A DNA stretch of 64,000 bases from assembly GCF_000710615.1 (NCBI RefSeq), contig NZ_JDTH01000002.1:1170082-1234081 (forward strand), given 5' to 3'. Position 1 is the first letter of the stretch. Each line of letters starts with the position of its first letter. The stretch comes from Haladaptatus cibarius D43. GTDB taxonomy: Archaea > Halobacteriota > Halobacteria > Halobacteriales > Haladaptataceae. This document shows positions 6,758 through 50,395 of the stretch, in pieces. Made by a program: the position numbers and the translations under genes. The notes under the pieces are model-generated. The model was not told where the DNA came from, searched no databases, and was given only the letters and a program-made list of their open reading frames with translations.

Positions 6758-7336
6758 CTACTCCACGGCATCACACAACTCGCAGAAGTTCCGAATCATC
6801 CGTTTTCCCTCGTCGGTGAGGATGCTCTCGGGATGGAACTGCACCCCGACGTGCGGGCGTTCGGCGTGCTGAACCCCCATCACGGTTCGGCGGTCGTCCG
6901 CGGTCTGGGCCGTTTCGACCAGCGCGTTCGGCAAGTCGCCGCGCTCGACCGCCAGCGAGTGATAGCGCCCGACTTCGAACGTTTCGGGGAGTCCGGTGAA
7001 AATGCCTTGCCCGTCGTGGCTCACCGTCGAGGGCTTGCCGTGGACGACCTCCGGAGCGTGAACCACGGGCGCCCCGTTGGCGGCACAGAGCGCCTGATGG
7101 CCCAGACAGACCCCGAGCGCGGGATAGGTCGTTTCCGCGAAGATAGGAACCGAAACCCCCGCGTCGTCCGGCGTTCCGGGGCCGGGCGAGACGACGATGC
7201 CGTCCGGGTCGAGTTCGCGGATGCCCGCGATGTCGATGGCGTCGTTTCGCCGGACGACTACCTCGTCGGCGAACTCCCCAACGTATTGGACGAGGTTGTA
7301 GACGAACGAGTCGTAGTTGTCGATGACGAGAATCAT
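6758..7336 (-). CDS. pabA: Glutamine amidotransferase subunit (PabA/TrpG type)
   Basis: A 192-residue class I glutamine amidotransferase. The oxyanion loop PGPGTPDDAG (about 50-59), the nucleophile in GVCLGHQAL (Cys near 78) and the C-terminal FHPES (His/Glu) are all present. It hydrolyses glutamine and channels ammonia to a chorismate-using partner. The start MILVIDNYDSFVYNLVQY is chosen because this is the family N terminus; the frame extends 57 codons upstream with non-protein-like sequence that runs towards the repeat element. The partner is probably the PabB/TrpE-like protein encoded 620 bases upstream. TrpG and PabA cannot be separated by sequence alone. Confidence 0.85.
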   Translation of the reverse strand: MILVIDNYDSFVYNLVQYVGEFADEVVVRRNDAIDIAGIRELDPDGIVVSPGPGTPDDAGVSVPIFAETTYPALGVCLGHQALCAANGAPVVHAPEVVHGKPSTVSHDGQGIFTGLPETFEVGRYHSLAVERGDLPNALVETAQTADDRRTVMGVQHAERPHVGVQFHPESILTDEGKRMIRNFCELCDAVE

Positions 7337-7479
7337 TTTCTGGGATTTGGTGGGTTTCGCGTCTTGGTCGTGAGTTTCGCGGGTTTCGGGTAAACTTTGT
7401 TGGTTCGATTGAATTTTGAGAAGGTGCAGTGGCGACGGGATTTCGAACTCTTTTCCGGTTTTGTCTTCGATTTCTGGTA

Positions 7480-7910
7480 GCAAATCACGACTCCACTGAA
7501 ACCGCACCGCAACAACTACACCCTCCCCAACCGAGTCCTTCGCTCCTACCGTCGCTCAGTCCTCCCTCGCGCGGGCGAACCACAGGTCCGCCGTCGCGCG
7601 CCGTATAGTACGTTTGGAGTTCGTGGATATTCACCACCTTCATGGCGCGTGCGTCAGCAGACCCGAGGAAAACGCGGTTTCTCCGAAACCGCGACTGCGA
7701 GCGGCGGAGCCGCGAGCCACCGCCGAGGGTTTGCAGATTATCACGCGAGGTCTTCGTGAGCGACAAAGGAGCGAGCGAACGGCTTGTCGAAGCTTGCTCC
7801 GACAGTGGACGAGTGCGTGAACGAACGTAAGCGCACGAGTCGGTTGGGGAGGATGTGGCCTGCGGTGGCGGTGCGGTTTTCATTGGAGTCGGCAACAGCT
7901 AGCAACACCG
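7480..7910. repeat. Intergenic repeat element, family I copy 1
   Basis: About 430 bases of non-coding sequence with imperfect inverted ends: AGCAAATCACGACTCCA on the left (about 7477) and a right end built on ATTGGAGTCG then AGCTAGCAA (7882-7905). Inside, CTCCCCAACCGAGTCC (left) is complementary to the right block around CGGTTGGGGAGG (7841-7852). The right block recurs at 35861 and 39987. It lies between pabB and pabA on a strand where both genes point the same way. The codon-like frames through it (for example a 136-codon minus frame) have the low-complexity composition of antisense or repeat DNA, not protein. Confidence 0.6.
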
Positions 7911-7955: not shown

Positions 7956-9488
7956 CTACTCCACGGAAAACCCATCGTCACGACCTAAAGCCTCGTCAAT
8001 CGCCTTCACGAGCGCCTTCCCCTTCGCTAGCGTTTCCTCGTACTCCAGTTCTGGCACGGAGTCGTGGACGATTCCGGCCCCGACGCGCAGGTGATACTCG
8101 TCCCGATACCGAACCAGCGTCCGGATGACGATGTTCAAGGTCGCCCGGTCGTCGAAGCCGAGCATGCCGATACTTCCCGTATATGGCCCTCTTCGAGTCG
8201 ATTCCAGTTCGTCGATGATTTCCATCGTCCGGGGTTTTGGCGCGCCAGTAATCGTCCCGCCGGGGAACAGCGCCGCGATTGCGTCCGTCAGACTCACCCC
8301 CGACCGCCGCCGCCCGGCGACCTCCGAAACGAGGTGCATCACCTCGGAGTACTTATCGACCCGGCGGTAATCCGTCACCTCGACAGTTCCGTACTCGGCG
8401 ATTTTCCCGCAGTCGTTTCGCTCCAAATCCACGAGCATCGCGTGTTCTGCGCGTTCTTTCTCGTCGCCGAGGAGGTCGGCTTCGAGTTCCGCGTCCTCCG
8501 CCGCAGTGTCTCCCCGCGTTCGAGTTCCTGCGATGGGTTCCGTGACGATTCGTTCGTCCTCAACGGAGAGCAGGAGTTCCGGACTGGCGCTGACCAAATC
8601 GACGCCCGGAAATTCGATGAGCGCGGAGTAGGGCGCTGGATTCACGCGCCGAAGCGCGTCGAAGGCTTCGACGGGATGCACGCTCGCGGGCGCTTCGAGT
8701 CGCTGGGAGATGTTCGCCTGAAACGTCTCGCCGTCGCGGATGTACCGCTTGACGGCCTGCACGCGCTCCGCGAAGGCGTCCTTGCCACAACTGCTGACGA
8801 ACGACCCCTGTTCGTCGGTGGGCGGGTCGCCAACCGCTTCGTCGCCCTCGATTGCAGATTGGGCGAGGACACACGCCATTTCCCGAGCTTTTTCGTAGGT
8901 CGAATCTGGATTATCAGGGTTCCCGAGTCGTGGACAGGCCGTCACTCGGAGGGTCGTTTCCGGACTCTCGTCCGCTTCGCCGTGCGTTTCCCACGCCGCA
9001 ACGCAGTCGTACAGTCCGAACTGGAGTTGCGGCAGGGTTCGGTCGTCCGTCGCCAGTCCCGGAAGCGTCTCCAACTCGCGCACGAGGTCGTATGAAAGCC
9101 AGCCGAACAGGCCGCAGGGGTACGGAACGTCGCAGTCCCCGCGAAGCAGTGTTTCGTCGTCCAGCACGCCCGAAAGCGCGGCGAGGCTCGTTCCCGACTC
9201 ATTGGCGAACTCGCTGTCCGCTCCGCCGAATAGCGAGTCCGCATCCTGTCTCGCTTGCAGTCGCTCTGTCGGTTCGACGCCGAAGTAGCCCCAGCCGGAC
9301 TGTCCACCCGTCGTCGCCAGATAAAAGCCACCGGAACCGTTCCGCGCGCGTCGGTAGGCGAGAAACGGGTCGTCCACGTCGATACGAACTTCGACGGGAA
9401 TCCTCGCGCCGCGCGATGCGTCGCGGGCCACCTCGCGGTACGCAAACCGCGAGGTGATGACCGTCAGTTTCTCACATCGATTTCGCAC
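7956..9488 (-). CDS. pabB: Chorismate-binding enzyme, aminodeoxychorismate synthase component I-like
   Basis: A 510-residue member of the TrpE/PabB family. The chorismate-binding core covers about 230-500: FQANISQRLE, SPELLL, PIAGTRTRG, DLERNDCGKIA, FPGGTITGAPK and VGAGIV. The N-terminal third lacks a recognisable LLES tryptophan-binding motif (the equivalent stretch reads FYLATTGGQSGW), which argues against a feedback-regulated anthranilate synthase. PIAGT has Ala where classical PabB has Lys (PIKGT). With pabA and pabC downstream and aroE upstream, a p-aminobenzoate role is favoured. The GTG start at 9488 overlaps the upstream gene by 17 bases. A TrpE paralogue remains possible. Confidence 0.75.
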   Translation of the reverse strand: MRNRCEKLTVITSRFAYREVARDASRGARIPVEVRIDVDDPFLAYRRARNGSGGFYLATTGGQSGWGYFGVEPTERLQARQDADSLFGGADSEFANESGTSLAALSGVLDDETLLRGDCDVPYPCGLFGWLSYDLVRELETLPGLATDDRTLPQLQFGLYDCVAAWETHGEADESPETTLRVTACPRLGNPDNPDSTYEKAREMACVLAQSAIEGDEAVGDPPTDEQGSFVSSCGKDAFAERVQAVKRYIRDGETFQANISQRLEAPASVHPVEAFDALRRVNPAPYSALIEFPGVDLVSASPELLLSVEDERIVTEPIAGTRTRGDTAAEDAELEADLLGDEKERAEHAMLVDLERNDCGKIAEYGTVEVTDYRRVDKYSEVMHLVSEVAGRRRSGVSLTDAIAALFPGGTITGAPKPRTMEIIDELESTRRGPYTGSIGMLGFDDRATLNIVIRTLVRYRDEYHLRVGAGIVHDSVPELEYEETLAKGKALVKAIDEALGRDDGFSVE

Positions 9489-18773: not shown

Positions 18774-18883
18774 TCGATTCCGTGTAGGGCTTTCGGTGGG
18801 GAAAAGCTATCTACTCACGACGTTAGCGGGGAACTGTCGTGGAATTGTTTTTCGATGGTCGAAGTGGCATTTGAACGATTATC

Positions 18884-19290
18884 ATGACTTCAAATCACGA
18901 CAATAAGCCACGCCCTCTCTCGTCAATCGCTCGTGGCAGGGCCACTCGCTCTTTCTTTCGTTCGCCCGTTGCCGTCAGGCCGCCAGAGGGCCGAGCGCGC
19001 CGCGCTCGACCCTCAAACGATTGGTTGAACTGCCACTGTGTGTCGGAAGCTATATCTTCGAAAAGCGACGGCTGACCAAATTTGGATTGAACGGGCGGGC
19101 CAGCGGCCCGCCCGTTCTGCTGTCCTTGTGTCTTGAAAACGCAGGGCGTTTTCAACGGCAGGAAAAAGCATGTCTCTTCCCGCGGCAACGGGCAAGCAAA
19201 CGCGGGAACGAGTGGCGGAGCTACGAGTGACCGCGTGAACGAGGGCGTGGCGTAGAGTCGTGAGTTGTAGTATCCCATTTGAATCAACTA
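18884..19290. repeat. Intergenic repeat element, family II copy 1
   Basis: About 400 bases without a supportable gene, between the lonB stop and the CPBP start. The ends form an imperfect inverted repeat: GCCACGCCCTC (18907-18917) and GAGGGCGTGGC (19241-19251). A strong hairpin, ACGGGCGGGCC-AGC-GGCCCGCCCGT, occupies 19091-19115, preceded by TTTGGATTGAAC. GATTGGTTGAACTGCC then TGTGTGTCGGAAG (19019-19049) recurs in the elements at 28.1 and 46.8 kb. The 19291-19410 tail shows nothing recognisable. Confidence 0.55.
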
Positions 19291-28030: not shown

Positions 28031-28136
28031 CGTTTGGGAACGTCGGTCGCGAGGAGGGAATCGATTTCGGGCGGTTAGCGTGTTTTACTCCGGATACGGT
28101 CTATTTTGAATGGTTTTGAGTGGATGTGTTATTCAT

Positions 28137-28490
28137 CCCGCTAGCTATTCACGACTCCAATCGAACCGCCACCGCAACTGCACCGCCTCCGCAACCGTAC
28201 CACCTCCGCAACTGCACCGCCTCCGCAACCGCAGGCGGACGAGTGCGTTGCACTCGCCCGCCAAGTGACTGATTGGCGTTGCGATAGTGTGTCAGAAGAC
28301 GAATTGCCGAAGAAAACGGTCAGTCGAAGTTGGATTGGGCGGGCGCGCCTCGGCGCGCCCGCCCTGCGGTTTTGGCTGAGAACGGGCGAACGAACGAGCG
28401 AATCGAGCAGACGCGAAGCGTCTGCGAGCAGAGCGAGTGAGTCGGGCGTGGTTTATTGCCTGCATCAGCAGTCGTCGCGGTATCAAAGTT
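28137..28490. repeat. Intergenic repeat element, family II copy 2
   Basis: About 350 bases between convergent genes (28030 and 28550). The left end GCTAGCTATTCACGACTCCAAT (28139-28160) is the complement of the right end of family I elements. A 24-base unit, GCAACTGCACCGCCTCCGC plus AACCG, occurs twice (28174-28197 and 28208-28231). A perfect 13-base hairpin, GGGCGGGCGCGCC with a TC loop, lies at 28337-28364, preceded by TTGGATT. AAGTGACTGATTGGCGTTGC then AGTGTGTCAGAAG (28264-28299) recurs in copies at 19.0 and 46.9 kb. No gene is supported. Confidence 0.6.
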
Positions 28491-35809: not shown

Positions 35810-35985
35810 CGCGAGAAACGCGCGAGGGATGAACGAACGAGCGATAGCGAGCGAGTGAATCGGTTGGGGAGGATGTGGGCGGTCGCGGTGGCTGTAATTT
35901 GTTGTCGTGATTTGCGTACGTCCGTTTGTTCCGTTTGTTCCGATTGTGTCGAAGCAAATCACGGCAACAAAACACGGAGTTTCAC
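35810..35985. repeat. Intergenic repeat element, family I copy 2 (partial)
   Basis: A 175-base stretch between the radical SAM start and the small zinc protein at 36058. CGGTTGGGGAGGATGTGG (35861-35878) is identical to 7841-7858, and GGTCGCGGTGGC follows. AGCAAATCACGGCAAC (35954-35969) mirrors the left end of copy 1. GTCCGTTTGTTCCGTTTGTTCCG (35928-35951) is a 10-11 base tandem repeat. It lies in the divergent promoter region, so it could influence expression of both genes. Confidence 0.5.
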
Positions 35986-38643: not shown

Positions 38644-39426
38644 TTAGCCGAGGAACGACTCAACTCCTCGCGCCGGATAGCCGACCACCAAATCCGCCCC
38701 GGCGTCTTTCAGTTCGGCGATGCGCTCGCCGACTTCCGTCTCCGTCCCGACCAGCGCGAAGTCGCGGCTCGCTTTCAACAGCACTTCACGGGTGCGTCCA
38801 ACAGCACGGGCGTCCGTCTTTCCATCCTCAGGAAGCGCCCGAGCGACCGGCTTTCGGCGCGCGACGTACTCCCCGACAGCGTCGAGGATGACGTTCTCGT
38901 CGCCCGTGAGAACCGTCGGAGCGTACACCGCAATCGTTCCCTCGAATCCGGCGGCCCGGAGCGCTCGGAGTTCGCGGTCGGTCGAACGCGAGAGGAGTTC
39001 AAACTGCGTCGCCCCCGTCGCGGTTGCAATTCGCTTCACGCCTTCCGTCCCGACCCACGCATTCGGTGCACTATCGAGTGCGTTTCCGAGTCGGGGCGCG
39101 ATTGCGCGAGTTTTCTCTTTCTCCGAGAGATAGGCGGGGTGGCCCGCGACGAGCACCTGCCCTGCATTTTCGGGAATGTGGTCGAAAAGCGAATCGTCGC
39201 CGAGGGGGTCGAAGCCGTCGGCTCGAACCGGAATCGTCATACGGAGATCCTTTTTCGCGGCGAGTTCAGCGAGTGTTTCTCTGTCGGGGAGTTGCTCGCG
39301 CCCTTCGTAGTCGATTGTAATCGTCTCGAAAGGCAGTTCCAGCGCCCTCCGCACGTCGCATTCGGTCGGTTTCAGTGCGACTGCATCGAGGCCGGTTCGT
39401 GTGACGGCGTGGCTACTGGTTAACAT
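38644..39426 (-). CDS. Haloarchaeal luciferase-like/TIM-barrel-type protein, unknown function
   Basis: A 260-residue protein with an alternating strand/helix pattern (ETITIDYEGREQLP, QVLVAGHPAYLS, GTIAVYAPTVLTGDENVILDAVGEY) compatible with a TIM barrel. GTETEVGERIAELKDAGADLVVGYPARG at the C terminus resembles the ending of F420-dependent luciferase-like monooxygenases, suggesting a distant relation, but cofactor residues are not certain. Such proteins are common in haloarchaea without assigned function. It lies upstream of creatininase on the same strand, 76 bases away. Confidence 0.6.
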   Translation of the reverse strand: MLTSSHAVTRTGLDAVALKPTECDVRRALELPFETITIDYEGREQLPDRETLAELAAKKDLRMTIPVRADGFDPLGDDSLFDHIPENAGQVLVAGHPAYLSEKEKTRAIAPRLGNALDSAPNAWVGTEGVKRIATATGATQFELLSRSTDRELRALRAAGFEGTIAVYAPTVLTGDENVILDAVGEYVARRKPVARALPEDGKTDARAVGRTREVLLKASRDFALVGTETEVGERIAELKDAGADLVVGYPARGVESFLG

Positions 39427-39659
39427 TGAGTGCTCCCCATGGTCAGAACTAGGCTACTGCATACGCGGAACGCGATCCATCGTCTGTGCGACCATGTGAC
39501 TTTCCGTTGTTCGGTGGTATTCAAAAGCCTGTCGGCAACGGCAACTATGTGATGAATGGCTTTGTGTTCGCGGTCGATTTGTTGTATAAACTTTTGTTCT
39601 GGAAGCTTGTTTTTCTGTTTGGTCGGCTGGTGTTTCAGCGGCTTTCGTCTCTATTTTGC

Positions 39660-40060
39660 TAGCAAATCACGACTTCAAATACCGCAACCGCCCACACACC
39701 TCCCCAACCGACTCGTGCGCTCACGTTCGTTCGCACACTCGTCCCTCGCGCAGTAATCGGCAGGGCTGAGGAATGTTCCTCAGCCCTGCCGACGCACGCG
39801 CCACGAGGAAACGGTCAATTCCGGAGTCACGGATTTTCCATCTGGCGCGCGCTGGCACAGCCCTGAGGAGTTCGCCTCCGAAGGGCTGTGCTGACAGCGT
39901 GCGAGGTCTTCATGAGCGACGCAGGAGCGAGTGAACGGCTTGTCGGAGTTTGCTCCGACAGTGGACGACCGAAATGAGCGCGAGCGAGTGAGGAAGTCGG
40001 TTGGGGAGGGAATGGCCTGCGGTTGCGGGACGGTTTGATTGGAGACGCGACTTGCTCGCC
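39660..40060. repeat. Intergenic repeat element, family I copy 3
   Basis: A 400-base non-coding element. Left end: AGCAAATCACGACTTCAA (39661-39678) with CACCTCCCCAACCGACTCG (39697-39715). Right end: CGGTTGGGGAGGGAATGGCC (39998-40017) and GGTTTGATTGGAGACGCGACTTGC (40032-40055). Two inner hairpins are strong: a perfect 16-base stem at 39758-39791 (CGGCAGGGCTGAGGAA) and GCACAGCCCT/AGGGCTGTGC at 39855-39891. GAGCGAGTGAACGGCTTGTCGGAG (39926-39949) recurs at 7767. It lies in a 715-base gap with no gene. Confidence 0.6.
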
Positions 40061-40141
40061 ACTCTGAAATCAGGTCAGCGGAACTAACAAGAAAGCACAG
40101 AAATCACCGCGGAAAGTAACACAAAACATAGAACCGATTCG

Positions 40142-40744
40142 CTACCCCAAATCCGGGTCGGTATCGACGTACCTATCAATCGTCTCGGGCGCGCGCCAAT
40201 CGGTAACTAATTCCAAAAACTGCACCACCATTCGCCCGGTCGCACCCCAGACGGTGTAGCCATCGACGTGGAAAAAGTGGATGACGATGTCGCCGTAATG
40301 CGGGTGGTCGCGGTGTTCGTTTTCGTAGTTCGCAGAATCAATCAGCCCGGAAATCGGAAGGATGGCGATTTCCGCGACTTCGCGCTCGTCGGGTTCGTAA
40401 GTTCGGTCGGCAACTCTGGCGACGAACGGCGTGACGGCGTAGTTCGTGATGGTTCGAATGTCGTCCAACCGACCGACGCGTTCGGCCTCCTCGCGCCGAA
40501 GGCCGATTTCCTCGTTGGCCTCGCGCAGGGCAGTGTCCCAGAGGTCATCGTCCTGCGGTTCCCGCCCGCCGCCGGGGAAACTCATTTGGCCGGGATGTTC
40601 CCCGAGGTGGTCGGCCCGCTTGGTAAACAGGAGATGCGGGCCGTCCGCCCGCTCGACGATGGGAACGAGGACGGCGGCGTCGCGCTTCTCGTCCGTGACC
40701 AACCGCGGTTCGTAGTCGGCCACGCAACCCAAGTCCATGTCCAT
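40142..40744 (-). CDS. Nudix hydrolase, CoA pyrophosphatase type
   Basis: A 200-residue protein. ADHLGEHPGQMSFPGGGREPQD matches the NUDT7/UPF0035 signature (LLTxRxxxLxxHxGqxaFPGG) and the Nudix box continues as TALREANEEIGL, so it probably cleaves CoA or a related nucleoside diphosphate derivative. IGLRREEAERVGRLDDI follows as in this group. It starts at MDMDLGCVADYEPRLV; the second Met six bases downstream is an alternative. It is 18 bases after the DUF-type gene at 40763 on the same strand. Confidence 0.85.
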   Translation of the reverse strand: MDMDLGCVADYEPRLVTDEKRDAAVLVPIVERADGPHLLFTKRADHLGEHPGQMSFPGGGREPQDDDLWDTALREANEEIGLRREEAERVGRLDDIRTITNYAVTPFVARVADRTYEPDEREVAEIAILPISGLIDSANYENEHRDHPHYGDIVIHFFHVDGYTVWGATGRMVVQFLELVTDWRAPETIDRYVDTDPDLG

Positions 40745-46651: not shown

Positions 46652-46789
46652 GCTTCGTGGTAGTCGATTGTACGGTAAAAACACGGGGTTGATGGACTGT
46701 CCGTGGTTCGTGACTGTCGGTTTTGATTGGCGAGGTTCGTTCCGAGATGACGGATTGAGGTTGGGGGTTTTGATTTGTCGGTATCTACT

Positions 46790-47090
46790 GCCGACAACAA
46801 ATGACCGCCTCCACACCCGCCTCCATCTCCGCACCCACCTCCGCCACCGCAATCGCAATCGCAATCGCAATCGAAACCGAAACCGAAATCGAAATCGCAG
46901 GCGGGGAGTGCGCCGCACTCGCCCCCCCCCAAGTGACCAGTCGGTCTTGCAGTCGATTTCAGAAGGACGAATTTTCACCCAGAAATCGGCTGGTCGAGTT
47001 TGGGTTGGGCGGGCAGGCCACGATCTGCCCACCCTGCGGTTGCGGTGGCGGTTACAGTGGCGGCATCAGTAGTCGTCACGGAAAAACATC
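46790..47090. repeat. Intergenic repeat element, family II copy 3
   Basis: A 300-base non-coding element in a 530-base gap. A hexanucleotide tract lies at 46847-46898: CAATCG units followed by GAAACC- and GAAATC-type units. Homology to the 28.1 kb copy includes AAGTGACC, TTTCAGAAGGACGAATT (46961-46978) and TTGGGTTGGGCGGGC. The second hairpin is GGGCGGGCAG/CTGCCCACCC (47007-47034). A run of nine C (46922-46930) follows the first hairpin. CATCAGTAGTCGTCACGG (47064-47081) equals the end of the 28 kb copy. No gene is supported. Confidence 0.6.
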
Positions 47091-50149: not shown

Positions 50150-50395
50150 CGGTGCGCTCTCGACTGTGCTTGGTCGGTGGCGCGCGGGAGTGAAGCGACT
50201 CGCGCGAGGGACGAGTGAGCGCAGTGAACGAAGAGGCTGGGGAGGACGAGGCATACGAGGTTTCGGAAAAATCTCGAAAGTGAGTAGCGCGGAACTTCGT
50301 TCCGCGGACAGTCGAGCGGCAAAGCCGCGAGACGACGGTGAAACCGCGAGCAAGCGATGGTGGTCTGATTGGAGTCGGAAACAGCTAGCAGTTCG
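50150..50395. repeat. Intergenic repeat element, family I copy 4
   Basis: A 245-base element between DUF371 and endonuclease III. The right end TCTGATTGGAGTCGGAAACAGC, then TAGCA (50364-50390), repeats the end at 7876-7905. GGCTGGGGAGGACGAGG (50237-50253) is a variant of the CGGTTGGGGAGG block. Two hairpin-like stretches, GGAACTTCGTTCC (50299-50311) and CGGCAAAGCCG (50323-50333), lie inside. GAGTGAAGCGACTCGCGCGAGGGACGAGTGAGCG forms the GC-rich palindromic left part. No open frame is convincing. Confidence 0.55.

Follow-up and report, generated by a model that had tools for sequence, protein, structure and literature searches.

Family I, a probable non-autonomous palindromic interspersed element of haloarchaea, old in position and remodelled inside

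Several intergenic spacers in the window (the whole stretch of 64,000 nucleotides analysed here, from Haladaptatus cibarius D43) contain copies of one sequence, Family I, which an earlier note had described as a very abundant intergenic element with imperfect inverted repeats at its ends and no coding capacity, not named in any known feature list. Four explanations were weighed: Family I could be a mobile element, a structured RNA, a chromosomal element used by the host, or a sequence that inserts again and again at the same hot spots. We conclude that Family I is probably MITE/BIME-like: a palindromic, non-autonomous interspersed element that haloarchaea carry at old positions and whose inside has been remodelled.

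The element is present at all four places where it had been reported, but the copies are not equivalent, two being complete, one inside-out and one truncated (Table 1). The reported identity between 7841 and 35861 is correct and extends over 18-19 bases, but the other motifs claimed to be shared are each missing or altered in some of the copies: GAGCGAGTGAACGGCTTGTCG is exact only in the 39.7 kb copy and differs at one base in the 7.5 kb copy, AGCTAGCA is found only at 7.9 and 50.4 kb, and in the 35.8 kb copy TTGTTGTCG replaces GATTGGAGTCG. Copy 1 lies between trpG (6758-7483, minus strand) and trpE (7956-9488, minus strand), with a nested hairpin insert inside arm 3 of its core, and copy 3 between a DUF7388 gene (38644-39426, minus strand) and a NUDIX gene (40142-40744, minus strand). 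Genes near the copies were called by a simple codon-usage script, and a Pfam check of 10 proteins, from which these neighbours are named, gave a family for 9. In the inside-out copy, the terminus of the end module faces a second terminus (35954-35966, minus strand) across a spacer of about 38 nt. The window also holds a separate 86-bp inverted repeat (33074-33159/33661-33746; 93% complementary, 501 nt apart), which encloses a predicted 147-aa gene.

Table 1. Family I and Family II features in the window.
Feature	Position	Strand	Remarks
Complete copy 1	7471..7909		End-module profile matches both sides; DNA fold z = -7.7
Left end module, copy 1	7471..7569	-	Terminus TAGCAAATCACGACTCC; block CCTCCCCAACCG at 7522-7533; nhmmer 8.7e-20
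Four-way-junction core, copy 1	7564..7751	+	Covariance model R1, 96.3 bits, E = 3e-19
Right end module, copy 1	7807..7909	+	Block CGGTTGGGGAGG at 7841-7852; terminus GGAGTCGGCAACAGCTAGCAACA; nhmmer 2.7e-17
Inside-out copy	35823..35970	+	End module 35823-35922, nhmmer 1.2e-18; similar loci found
Complete copy 3	39653..40065		DNA fold z = -11.8; both ends in profile search
Left end, copy 3	39653..39748	-	nhmmer 6.9e-19
Right end, copy 3	39963..40065	+	nhmmer 1.8e-15
Four-way-junction core, copy 3	39743..39885	-	Model R1, 71.5 bits on minus strand, 55.8 bits on plus strand
Truncated copy 4	50205..50393	+	One end module; diverged block GAGGCTGGGGAGG; hairpin insert of ~90 nt; nhmmer 8.1e-5
Family II element	18871..19285		Only terminal AGTCGTGA motif in common with Family I; unrelated interior hairpins
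Hybrid	28131..28490		Family I terminus (28139-28197) joined to Family II interior
Family II-type element	46774..47090 (or from 46765)		Weak Family I-like terminus at 46774-46837

The repeat unit is an end module of about 100 bp, usually found as an outward-facing pair; in a typical copy the two modules are 200-500 bp apart, with a core in between. Read from inside to outside, the module is roughly CGAGGGATGA...AGTCGGTTGGGGAGG..GTGTGG..GCGGTTGCGGTGCGGT..TCATTGGAGTCGTGATTTGCTAACGACA, and it stops at a sharply bounded terminus, ...GTGATTTGCTANCRRCA. Over 121 ends the information content falls to near zero immediately after ...GCTANCRRCA, and the next 60 bases are unconserved except for a mild A-richness; hence the ends are conserved, and the terminal inverted repeats have the sharp boundary expected of a MITE. 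Some sites bear extra outer termini, and others are inside-out, with two facing termini across a spacer of about 30 nt whose sequence is similar between sites. This spacer, approximately CGTTTGATTATATCGTGTTTCA, is common to the centres of six loci (L032, L036, L042, L049, L061 and L089) and to window positions 35916-35953.

The core is predicted to fold as a four-way junction of hairpins. Its stem P1 (CCCTCGCGC/GCGCGAGGG) is followed by a variable arm P2 and by a conserved, asymmetric middle arm that GCGCGCCA/TGGCGCGTGC closes; after these comes hairpin P4, with a GATTA-like tail behind it. The core hairpins vary in sequence between copies with the pairing retained, and whole copies fold as DNA far better than shuffled sequence (z values in Table 1). 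Cores were oriented by a covariance model, which replaced an earlier regular expression that had oriented 33 of 107. The model matched 60 distinct loci in the own genome and the H. litoreus sequence, many cores scoring on both strands; against 117 genomes and under stricter filters, matches were confined to Haladaptatus and Halorussus (7 genomes).

The family proved larger than described. The 3.93-Mb genome of H. cibarius D43 contains 75 CGGTTGGGGAGG blocks compared with 4 occurrences of the reversed control pattern, and the window alone has five exact blocks, or eight at no more than one mismatch, against 0.52 expected, which is not the chance GC-rich similarity that could have explained the first matches. 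DNA searches with two element copies as queries returned 115 and 113 matches, and an iterated end-module profile found 142 ends at 77 intergenic sites in the fetched loci of the own genome, a lower bound to which six more sites were later added. The 77 clusters are non-coding, multicopy and at most about 520 bp long, within the MITE limit of about 600 bp; the description as an intergenic element without coding capacity, having imperfect inverted-repeat ends, is supported. The sites are scattered across the genome in all intergenic contexts and have no preference for gene orientation: neighbouring genes are codirectional, divergent and convergent in 39, 23 and 14 cases, compared with 121, 72 and 38 for all gaps longer than 100 bp in the same loci. 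Given this lack of orientation bias, a terminator or promoter role was rejected.

The motif is widespread beyond this genome: of 293 Halobacteriales genomes, 124 contain TCGGTTGGGGAGG, spread over 45 of 87 genera, and controls were near zero. Block counts in individual Haladaptatus genomes are 0, 5, 10, 28, 30, 33, 49, 70 and 75, and reach 100 in the family; such unevenness favours a selfish history over an essential function in the host. In Halorussus the layout is unchanged, but the termini differ (CTAGCTACTCCCGGTACCTATGAGACCGC). Family I is also found, unannotated, on plasmids of Halorussus, Halobaculum, Natrinema and Haloarcula. Phages gave no match, nor did 2.9 million viral contigs searched with two exact patterns, and a phage origin was therefore rejected. 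At two Halobaculum plasmid loci (L282, L279) and one Haladaptatus locus (L254), a different inverted repeat, GGGTGGGACTGAAAGGGGC ... GGGGGCTTTCA, flanks the cores; it seems to represent a further haloarchaeal repeat family that is attached to this block as well. As for the claim that no feature list names the element, it is absent from Rfam 15 (the only match in the window was a tRNA), five plasmid records carry copies without annotation, and a search of open-access papers, including one for the block sequence, found no description, a provisional result. The family is not confined to this genome: across the order, haloarchaeal genomes carry it as an unannotated component that can reach about 100 block copies in one genome.

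When empty sites were sought in relatives, as the earlier note had suggested, most sites proved to be shared. In 800 kb fetched from H. litoreus, where flanks are mostly 87-95% identical (about 91%), element ends were present at 22 of the 23 own-genome sites with both flanks aligned. At the lone exception, beside mutL, the entire intergenic region is unalignable, and no base-exact empty site was found there or in three comparisons that started from H. litoreus. The trp copy is common to H. litoreus and genome G004, partly to G002, and its right end is alike in three species; genomes G001 and G006 lack this copy, and at two orthologous sites they have gaps of 111-155 bp without the element. Thus, most Family I positions in Haladaptatus are old and common to several species.

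The interiors at these positions have been remodelled in place. Orthologous ends resemble each other only moderately more than paralogous ends do; the difference is clearest in the outer 15-30 columns or so, and the inner columns are at about the paralogue level; the block columns 41-45 are 97% identical between orthologous ends, compared with 86% between paralogues and 62-80% in neighbouring columns. About five of 11 comparable orthologous pairs (trp, 1209734, 1509914, 1575773 and 1587027) have cores that are inverted with respect to the flanks, and about six have direct ones, an estimate based on few, diverged pairs. At site 1813382 the loop of one hairpin is reversed, and an A-T pair in the same hairpin has been replaced by G-C, a compensated change. 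In the inverted pairs, columns 61-103 keep their arm side (65 same : 21 cross), whereas columns 11-60 do not clearly do so (57 : 46). Side identity fades gradually inward, which leaves a single crossover site for the inversion unsupported; the pattern of side identity and inversion is consistent with recombination between inverted arms.

If the core were a transcribed four-way-junction RNA, selection would tolerate G·U but not A·C on the transcribed strand. The covariation that the earlier note had proposed to look for does exist in the core: an alignment of 12 cores has 96.3% of its cells paired, and both partners have changed in 11 pairs, compared with 5.1 in shuffled and at most 4 in slid controls. 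A structured RNA family would also agree with the asymmetric middle arm, with a G·U pair that is conserved in P3 and with a weak wobble excess in arm 3 (P4), where the oriented strand of 40 cores has 32 G·U against 14 A·C. However, in P1-P3 of the same cores, fixed pairs excluded, the ratio is 28 : 26, and whole elements show no strand asymmetry: their ratio is 129.5 : 145, and the dispersion between copies (0.91) does not exceed its null mean (0.95). Because G·U and A·C are about equal in whole elements, the pairing appears to be maintained mainly at the DNA level, P4 apart, and not by selection on RNA. The mismatch test is weakly calibrated, as the rRNA run intended as a positive control yielded too few events (7 : 2.5). 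Since many cores also score on both strands, and cores are inverted between orthologues and match no Rfam family, we regard the RNA explanation as quite unlikely; in palindromes of this sort, compensatory changes need not imply a functional RNA.

Fixed positions with changeable interiors could also mean that the host uses the element, cruciforms or a protein at the CGGTTGGGGAGG block organising the chromosome (topology, insulation, segregation), so that the position is selected and the interior is free. The positions shared with H. litoreus at about 91% flank identity, the constancy of block columns 41-45, the very strong predicted fold and the genome-wide spread over all intergenic contexts speak for this possibility, which would open the question of chromosome organisation in archaea. 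Yet copy number within a single genus varies between species from 0 to 75, G001 and G006 lack the element at orthologous sites, and conversion from paralogues sharing the block could alone keep it constant; hence host use seems unlikely. A more specific version, in which cruciform-forming invertible loci at fixed positions and a dedicated protein at the block form a chromosome-organising system, their interiors exchanged or flipped with the fold kept, is still more doubtful; such a system would have no described archaeal counterpart. Shared sites would not mean shared ancestry if copies had re-inserted independently at the same hot spots. Orthologous interiors are indeed almost as different as paralogous ones, some termini differ too, and the stacked extra outer termini of some sites resemble nested insertions, but in many cases a terminus is clearly orthologous together with its junction, the trp copy at its right end being an example, and site 1509914 retains 94% identity on one outer side. 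Re-insertion is therefore very improbable.

A non-autonomous mobile element, the reading that we prefer, would have spread by a transposase acting in trans on the conserved terminus (...TGGAGTCGTGATTTGCTANCRRCA), perhaps also on the CGGTTGGGGAGG block. A second intergenic repeat family in the window, Family II (18.9, 28.1 and 46.8 kb), has interiors unrelated to Family I but the terminal AGTCGTGATTTGC-like stretch in common with it. The 28.1 kb hybrid matches Family I ends at 79-81% over 55 bp and other Family II copies at 71-77% over about 150 bp (blastn), and between Family I ends and the remaining Family II copies the similarity is 90-95% across about 20 bp. One terminus on different passengers is what a trans-acting transposase would produce, and a single enzyme may have acted on several of them; alternatively, the common terminus could come from recombination between the two families. 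Family II, which also occurs at L300 and L302, has conserved hairpins of its own, e.g. GGGCGGGC..GCCCGCCC. A 17-bp minisatellite (CAACTGCACCGCCTCCG) at window positions 28158-28225 has grown from the GCGGT stretch of an end module.

Transposition is an inference here, since the analysis found neither an autonomous copy nor a target duplication nor a base-exact empty site. Neither a transposase nor a longer copy bearing Family I ends was detected in the own genome; the one 3.5 kb candidate with outward termini (L295) was rejected, as it contains a replication factor C-like and a DUF7282 gene and has weakly matching termini. Among 46 pairs, target-site duplications of 4-9 bp were in no excess over shuffled flanks, the copies being old enough for decay to be possible. 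The turnover of interiors may reflect recombination, or template switching, with the inverted arms or extruded hairpins as partners; either process would at the same time hold the arms complementary. Lasting positions combined with inverting, recombining interiors make Family I a natural record of hairpin- or arm-mediated recombination in archaea.

Among known systems, REP/BIME elements with their RAYT transposases, and CGTC-tagged REPs in particular, resemble Family I in having hairpins and in occurring as palindromic singles, inverted pairs and clusters (PMC3733652). A CGTC-like tag precedes many arm-3 hairpins, adding to the likeness, but it is found only in that arm of the core; the repeat unit is not a short hairpin with a GTAG or CGTC tag, being about 100 bp long and not itself a hairpin, whereas REPs are 20-40 bp. 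No RAYT-type gene was noticed beside the Family I copies, and the paper on CGTC-tagged REPs names no haloarchaea (PMC3733652). With MITEs Family I shares short, non-coding, multicopy and intergenic copies, inverted-repeat ends with sharp termini and patchy copy number. It differs from them in its end modules of about 100 bp, the conserved hairpin-junction core and the interior turnover at shared positions, and in that the own genome yielded no target duplication or parental transposase. ERIC-like bacterial repeats are likewise long imperfect intergenic palindromes with complementary changes between the arms; Family I, unrelated to them in sequence as far as known, is archaeal and has a composite three-arm core. 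It is best read as a new family of the MITE/BIME-like kind.
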